Assembly (NCBI GenBank): GCA_021779935.1
Contig: JAJXZT010000061.1
Location: 1 to 64,000, forward strand
Length of the DNA stretch: 64,000 bases
Direction: 5' to 3'
Origin: Acidobacteriota bacterium
GTDB lineage: Bacteria > Acidobacteriota > Terriglobia > Terriglobales > Acidobacteriaceae
A model generated the notes under the pieces. The model was not told the DNA's origin. It saw only the letters and a program-made list of their open reading frames with translations, and ran no database searches. The translations under genes and the position numbers were made by a program. Positions 5,336 through 28,046 of the stretch are shown here, one piece after another (the stretch's first letter is position 1; each line of letters starts with the position of its first letter).

Positions 5336-5512
5336 CTACTTCTTCTGGTTCTGGTCCGAGTTCGACTCGCCTTCCTTCATCGACGACTTGAAGTTCCTGA
5401 TTCCGTCGCCCAGTCCCTTGCCAAGCTCAGAGAGCTTTGACGGGCCAAAGATGAGCAGTGCAATCGCCAGAATCACCAGCAGCTCGGGAATTCCAATTTT
5501 TCCACCGAACAT
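5336..5512 (-). CDS. tatA: Twin-arginine translocase subunit TatA/E
   Basis: A 58-residue protein. It begins [20 protein letters not shown], has one short N-terminal membrane helix, the conserved [21 protein letters not shown] amphipathic helix after the FGP hinge, and a charged tail ending NSDQNQKK. This is the complete TatA architecture (pore-forming component of the Tat protein export system in the inner membrane). The ribosome site GGGAGGAAGTT immediately precedes the ATG. No tatB or tatC is adjacent, so it is a stand-alone tatA. A Tat-type signal on the GH30 enzyme in this window (43099) suggests a local client. Confidence 0.93.
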
Positions 5513-5741
5513 AACTTCCTCCCTGATACGCTCATCGACTCGCTGCCGGATTCGTTCCGTTGCACACGGGGCGATATAGCCAGTTTAGGCTACCTGTTTC
5601 AGCTAGTCAAAACAAAGCCATGCCATGCAAAGCGAACATCGGCCGGTAATTCCCGCAGTTGCGTGTGGCCCGTGGACAAAGCGCACCAGCGAACCCGCGC
5701 ACTCTGATCACGCCTGCCATATGGCACTTATGTGTCGATTC

Positions 5742-27553: not shown

Positions 27554-27914
27554 GGGATGATGGCTTTCCAGCCGCTGTAAAATTCCCGCGCATGGGCCGC
27601 GCGGACAACGGCGCAATGATGGAGTTAAGAACTGCGTATTTTAACACTGCGTGGGCTTTCTACTCCGCACCCGCCGTCACTTCATCGTGGGTCGCCTCCT
27701 CCATTTTTTCTGCAAGTGACGGCCAGCGTCCTCAGGTACACCCTTCTCTCGTAACTTCGACTTTCTTTCAAATATGTAAAAATCTGTTGACATGTGCACT
27801 AACTAACCACAAAATATTGTGGCAGTGGCAGTAATCATCCAAGTTGTGGGATGGTACTGTTGGCTAGGCCCAAATCTAACCACCTTCAAGGGAGAAGGTT
27901 CTAGGAGGCATCAC
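27554..27914. other. Divergent intergenic region between tdh and the mini-gene
   Basis: 360 bases that should carry the leftward tdh promoter and a rightward promoter for the 18-codon mini-gene. A TTGACA at 27787-27792 is the best rightward -35 candidate, with AT-rich CACAAAATATTG about 16-18 bases downstream. ACCTTC (27882-27887) and GAAGGT (27894-27899) form a small hairpin right before the ribosome site of the mini-gene. No other gene is seen. Confidence 0.5.
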
Positions 27915-27971
27915 ATGCCAGTAAAGAAGAAGGCCGCAAAGAAAGCTGCAAAGAAGAAAGCCAAGAAGTAA
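27915..27971 (+). CDS. 18-aa Lys/Ala mini-gene
   Basis: The frame encodes MPVKKKAAKKAAKKKAKK, of which 11 residues are Lys and 5 Ala. It is preceded by a near-perfect Shine-Dalgarno, TAGGAGGCATCAC, and followed by two hairpins, the second a canonical terminator. Such composition is that of histone H1-like or AlgP-type tails and of disordered nucleic-acid-binding extensions, but here it is a whole gene. The frame is also open upstream for more than 20 codons, but the ribosome site points to this ATG. A regulatory or leader function for the ORF, rather than the peptide itself, cannot be excluded. Confidence 0.65.
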   Translation: MPVKKKAAKKAAKKKAKK

Positions 27972-27976
27972 CTGGT

Positions 27977-27994
27977 GCGAGGTCTGAACCTCGC
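27977..27994 (+). other. Short stem-loop after the mini-gene
   Basis: GCGAGGT (27977-27983) and ACCTCGC (27988-27994) around CTGA. It lies 5 bases past the stop and 26 bases before the terminator, so the transcript has two consecutive hairpins. Confidence 0.6.
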
Positions 27995-28020
27995 GAGAAA
28001 GTTTAGGCCCTATCTGTAGA

Positions 28021-28046
28021 GTCTCCGCTAACGCGGAGACTTTTTT
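28021..28046 (+). terminator. Canonical rho-independent terminator of the mini-gene
   Basis: GTCTCCGC (28021-28028) and GCGGAGAC (28033-28040) around TAAC, followed directly by six Ts. It proves a rightward transcript ends here, about 50 bases beyond the 18-codon frame. Confidence 0.9.

Follow-up and report, generated by a model that had tools for sequence, protein, structure and literature searches.

Predicted stand-alone genes for lysine/alanine micropeptides recur, often in pairs, in genomes of Acidobacteriaceae

The DNA analysed here (the window) is a stretch of 64,000 nucleotides from an Acidobacteriota bacterium. At positions 27787-28046 of its forward strand lies a complete single-gene unit, consisting of a promoter, a two-hairpin leader, an AGGAGG sequence, an 18-codon frame and a strong terminator. 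As judged by sequence comparison, most Acidobacteriaceae genomes carry this Lys/Ala cassette, often as a pair of paralogues, and both translation and conservation of the family are well supported. Peptides of 11-18 residues fall below the size that gene finders normally report. The micropeptides are nevertheless conserved in the majority of genera in a large family of soil bacteria, and beyond it, and their amino acids are clearly under selection.

Results and Discussion

Anatomy of the type A unit

The elements of the unit are collected in Table 1. The first-pass annotation of this DNA had seen here a full expression cassette that makes a Lys/Ala micropeptide on its own, with AGGAGG before the ATG, two hairpins and a terminator ending in six Ts. 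It further suggested a micropeptide of the nucleoid or one that binds RNA, a role that is inferred here too. Each of these elements was found, and the cassette itself was borne out, its frame being conserved with synonymous drift. The composition it gave, 11 Lys and 5 Ala, holds for alanine only: besides M, P and V, MPVKKKAAKKAAKKKAKK contains 10 Lys and 5 Ala. The promoter, the 5' stem-loop, a second paralogue and the breadth of the family come in addition to what was noted there.

Table 1. Elements of the type A unit and the grounds on which each was assigned (positions in the window)
Feature	Positions	Strand	Basis
Sigma-70-type promoter, TTGACA-17-CAAAAT	27787..27815	+	10/12 to consensus, 17-nt spacer
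5' stem-loop of leader, CAGTA.ATCATCC / GGATGG.TACTG	27829..27859	+	Sequence and fold; equivalent hairpins in relatives
Second leader hairpin, ACCTTC-AAGGGA-GAAGGT, bearing the conserved GGGAGAA element	27882..27899	+	Sequence; GGGAGAA...GGAGG...ATG leader in relatives
Shine-Dalgarno (SD) sequence, AGGAGG	27903..27908	+	6-nt spacer to ATG
Type A micropeptide gene, MPVKKKAAKKAAKKKAKK, 18 aa (ATG at 27915, stop codon ends at 27971)	27915..27971	+	Orthologues; purifying selection on frame
Post-stop hairpin, GCGAGG-TCTGAA-CCTCGC	27977..27994	+	Sequence and fold
Intrinsic terminator, 11-pair stem and T6	28018..28046	+	Sequence; terminators in relatives

The position of the promoter places the predicted transcription start near 27822. 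The predicted product is a monocistronic transcript of about 225-228 nt, in which 5' hairpins precede the single 18-codon frame and a post-stop hairpin and the terminator follow it. The fold of the 228-nt predicted transcript beats that of 200/200 shuffled sequences (z = -3.0). Related cassettes share the flanking signals: a promoter matching the consensus in at least 9 of 12 positions is present in 116 of 129 cassettes versus 18% of shuffles, and a terminator, by a loose criterion, in 118 of 129 versus 47% of shuffles.

A longer reading of the same region, a 50-aa frame from GTG at 27819, was rejected because its start would precede the predicted transcript start. It is also countered by an in-frame stop at most 90 nt upstream in 76 of 132 cassettes, and by leader lengths that differ by single bases within one genus (g28).

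Distribution of the family

Searched for simply as a protein, the 18-mer by itself had no match, not even in its own genome, and relatives were therefore gathered by DNA similarity and by patterns combining an SD with an ORF. When 200 genomes of the family were searched at the DNA level, orthologues aligned over leader and frame; many weaker matches were Lys/Ala tracts inside longer proteins. Orthologous peptides include MPVKKKPAKKAAKKKAKK, MPAKKKAAKKTAKKKK and MATKKKATKKAAKKKKR, all preceded by GGAGG and almost all accompanied by a TTGACA-like promoter and a terminator.

The pattern GGAGG and ATG preceded by GGGAGAA, joined to the ORF, occurs in 47 of 398 family genomes, representing 14 genera, and its reversed control gave none. 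Two paralogue types can be distinguished: type A, to which the gene of the window belongs, has the SD AGGAGG, and type B has the SD GGGAGAATAG; many genomes have both. A looser SD+ORF pattern admitting either SD was present in 122 of 160 family genomes that are nearly complete, and in 50 of 62 genera, whereas its reversed version matched nothing here either. Because the looser pattern does not require an in-frame stop, a few of its matches are longer proteins. The GGAGG type and the GGGAGAATAG-like type stand together in about 43 genomes among the matches listed.

Scanning about 85,000 species with the leader+ORF pattern yielded mainly metagenome-assembled genomes (MAGs) of Acidobacteriaceae/Terriglobia, the other matches being mostly chance N-termini of longer proteins. 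MAGs also make up most of the relatives. Genus g129, which belongs to a different family, has two genes for peptides of 11-12 residues (e.g. MAAKKKAKKKR and MAAKKAKKKKR), and further members of the phylum have versions of 19-24 residues. In five Chloroflexi MAGs the species scan picked up a version of 21 residues, MAAKKKAGGKKKAAKKSSKKK. In the phylum of these MAGs such genes exist in a few genomes, two of which hold two copies (L282, L286, L283 and L287), pairing MPAKKKKAAKKAKKH with MPAKKKAAKKSAKKKK and MPAKKKAAKKSTKKSSKKK with MPAKKKAAKKSAKKSAKKK; at least one Lys/Ala gene there has the promoter TTGACA-17-TATATA. These genes resemble those of Acidobacteriota and may be homologous or convergent, the sequences being too short to tell. 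MPAKKKKAAKKAKKH is one residue away from the Acidobacteriota type A peptide MPMKKKKAAKKAKKH. Plasmid-borne copies were looked for and none was found.

Selection on the frame

For each type and length class, substitutions were counted on a minimum-spanning tree. Of 575 substitutions, 328 were synonymous, while 134 were expected. Because the search pattern itself favours Lys/Ala codons, we repeated the test on codons outside the pattern and on loci found by BLAST/DNA similarity only. The former gave 149 synonymous changes out of 308 (69 expected, omega 0.31) and the latter 62 out of 112 (26.5 expected, omega 0.25), although a post-filter for K/A-rich frames may mildly bias this kind of test. Such a strong preference for synonymous change (omega about 0.25-0.3) identifies the peptide, as far as sequences can, as the conserved product of the cassette.

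Genus g28 (loci L051-L070 and L081-L141) gives a closer view. Its 13-codon ORF is nearly invariant in nucleotides, synonymous sites too; 21 cassettes encode the identical peptide MATKKKAAKKKKH, with identical nucleotides in almost all of them, while the spacing of the leader shifts by single bases. Since peptides stay identical where leader spacing varies, and since synonymous changes are in excess, the frame is the conserved unit. An extra nucleotide-level constraint on the ORF is possible in this genus. The first-pass annotation had named poor codon conservation beside fixed hairpins as an outcome that would speak against a gene. The opposite was found, the frame being kept and the leader changing in length and sequence by single-base indels.

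Peptide composition and proposed function

The family set of 133 distinct cassettes encodes 70 different peptides of 11-24 aa. Taken together they consist of 54% Lys and 27% Ala, carry a charge of +7 to +12 and contain no acidic residue (neither D nor E). Residue order and length drift among them; positive charge, Lys/Ala composition, a MAT/MAA/MPx start, a Lys-rich end with Lys, His or Arg as the last residue, and a minimum of 11 residues are kept. Preservation of composition, minimum length and Lys-rich end under drifting order and length points to binding by charge rather than to one precise pocket. The frequent C-terminal His and the conserved starts (MAT, MAA, MPA, MPM, MPV) are nevertheless more specific than charge alone would need, and seem to count against a reading of pure charge.

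In composition the micropeptides are Lys/Ala-rich like the C-terminal tail of histone H1. The C-terminal KPAA-repeat domains of AlgP and PhaF of Pseudomonas, and H1-like proteins such as chlamydial Hc2, are likewise Lys/Ala-rich, disordered and polycationic; these proteins are thought to bind DNA and to organise nucleoid or granules, and KPAA-repeat peptides bind DNA in vitro (PMC9239181). The long repeat tail on a folded N-terminal domain that marks AlgP and H1-like proteins is absent from the 18-codon gene: AlgP carries a tail of about 150 residues on its folded domain, whereas the whole micropeptide gene has 11-24 codons, no domain and hardly any proline.

Given the precedent of these tails and of the DNA-binding repeat peptides, binding of polyanions by a free peptide is the most likely function. 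By comparative sequence, type A is a monocistronic gene for a stand-alone polycationic peptide, and this peptide probably binds nucleic acids or another polyanion. The near-consensus -35 element, strong SD, hairpin-capped leader and strong terminator suggest constitutive and high expression. The 18-residue peptide, with a charge of about +10, would be disordered or transiently helical and would coat or bridge polyanions, namely chromosomal DNA, rRNA or mRNA, possibly polyphosphate, acting in the manner of the Lys/Ala tails of AlgP, PhaF or histone H1 but as a free molecule. More tentatively, and with somewhat less confidence than we would need to prefer it, we suggest that Acidobacteriota and some Chloroflexota have overlooked pairs of constitutive, histone-tail-like polycations of 11-24 residues that set the physical state of nucleoid or ribosome, a proteinaceous counterpart of polyamines. 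Nucleic-acid binding, if it occurs, would place the peptides with the smallest known proteins dedicated to chromatin or the ribosome. They would then also offer a natural test of the amount of biological function that charge alone can carry in the absence of a fold.

In the main competing explanation, the peptide would be a very small protein specific to this lineage, part of the ribosome or associated with it and seated in rRNA, as is bL37 (24 aa) in mycobacteria. The size, the charge, the strong expression signals and the unannotated ORF all resemble the discovery of bL37, which shares with other tiny bacterial ribosomal proteins that it is very short, basic, lineage-restricted and missed by annotation (PMC5876184). 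In several genomes, moreover, the type B gene adjoins rsmE, which encodes a 16S rRNA methyltransferase. bL37, however, fits one rRNA pocket, whereas peptides that drift in order and in length between 11 and 24 aa, keeping only their composition, do not look like a protein fitted to such a pocket, and the two paralogues often present per genome would be unusual for a ribosomal protein. We regard this explanation as unlikely, though it deserves more weight than any of those that follow.

The type B paralogue and its leader

The source genome has its own type B gene (G000:C4:42994-43076; locus L228, ORF 5509-5577), which encodes MATKKAAKKPAKKAAKKTAKKK and sits between a thiolase gene and rsmE-dnaJ-grpE. 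In an alignment of 18 type B loci (L043 to L241), the leader element AGGGAGAATAG, SD included, is invariant. In the two hairpins of this leader, 8 of 11 pairs have changed on both sides, compared with a mean of 3.4 after shuffling and 0-5 in slid versions. The invariant element together with the covarying hairpins suggests that part of the function may reside in the RNA. The invariant stretch exceeds the length an SD requires, and GGGAGAA recurs in the leader hairpin of type A.

These properties bear on another interpretation, by which the locus serves chiefly as a small regulatory RNA, its hairpins, purine-rich SD and Lys-codon tract working in trans and translation being secondary, as in a dual-function RNA. 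The stable fold of the transcript, the covarying type B hairpins with their invariant GGGAGAATAG element, and the nearly invariant ORF nucleotides of genus g28 would all agree with it. It does not account for the strong synonymous bias and for a peptide conserved in composition across genera, or for the persistence of that peptide where leader hairpins differ between the types, and no Rfam family corresponds to it; as a principal explanation we find it improbable. Regulation by CsrA through an ANGGAN-like loop and the SD was also considered and rejected, as CsrA (PF02599) is absent from 16/16 genomes of the family and order, with controls working.

Three genera seemingly devoid of type B (g9, g20 and g67) proved to have it near rsmE, with peptides that vary in Pro or in length. 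The surroundings of rsmE in g31, g44 and g64 yielded no such peptide.

Genomic neighbourhood

The commonest setting of type A has a divergent hydantoinase B or tdh gene upstream and merR downstream after the terminator; many loci differ. Type B lies 3' of a divergent gene and before others, which from reading their sequences we take to be thiolase and, for example, rmuC-uvrD or rsmE-dnaJ-grpE. Where type B loci with a conserved downstream neighbour were examined, that neighbour was on the opposite strand in almost all (exceptions L234 and L043). In another family, a gene for MAAKKKAKKKK is followed by rmuC-uvrD in the same orientation as at type B. A conserved co-directional gene that could be regulated was not found downstream at the type A and type B loci examined.

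Downstream neighbours being variable or opposite-strand, the micropeptide genes are autonomous. This arrangement bears directly on the alternative, raised in the first-pass annotation, that the frame is merely the translation of a leader, which synteny excludes. In its specific form, an attenuator leader peptide would sense lysine or charged tRNA-Lys on behalf of a downstream gene, and the anatomy does resemble that of known amino-acid attenuators, in which codons for one amino acid dominate a short ORF and hairpins and a terminator come after it; in the window and several relatives, merR also lies downstream in the same orientation. Attenuators, however, regulate the gene behind them, and here that gene changes among loci or, at almost all type B loci examined with a conserved neighbour, is inverted, with no lysine-metabolism gene consistently downstream, so that we give this alternative very little credence. 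Least credible of all is a spurious intergenic ORF: Lys/Ala codons are simple, and sequence of low complexity may pass for conserved, but 122 of 160 genomes against no reversed-pattern controls, the enrichment of promoters and terminators and an omega of 0.25-0.3 leave practically no room for it.

Database and literature matches

Relatives of 21-23 residues were used as queries against Pfam and NCBIfam, the 18-mer being too short, and had no match. The type B paralogue had none in PDB, for which the 18-mer itself was again too short, and we know of no Acidobacteriota ribosome structure. Since no Rfam model matches, the transcript belongs to no known structured RNA family. The family is not described in the open-licence full texts searched. 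As far as this literature shows, the stand-alone, paired gene form of 11-24 codons is undescribed, and its chemistry, that of H1-like Lys/Ala tails and tiny basic proteins, is familiar.

Proteins with a K/A-rich head, starting with MATKKAAKK behind a GGAGG SD, were observed at L153 (1298-1555, minus strand) and at L145. The L153 protein is a DUF6496 (PF20106) protein, in which a micropeptide-like head is fused to a domain. Such DUF6496 proteins, present in the same family, share the MATKKAAKK-type head and its GGAGG SD with the micropeptides; they differ in having a 55-residue domain after the head and are not stand-alone micropeptides.
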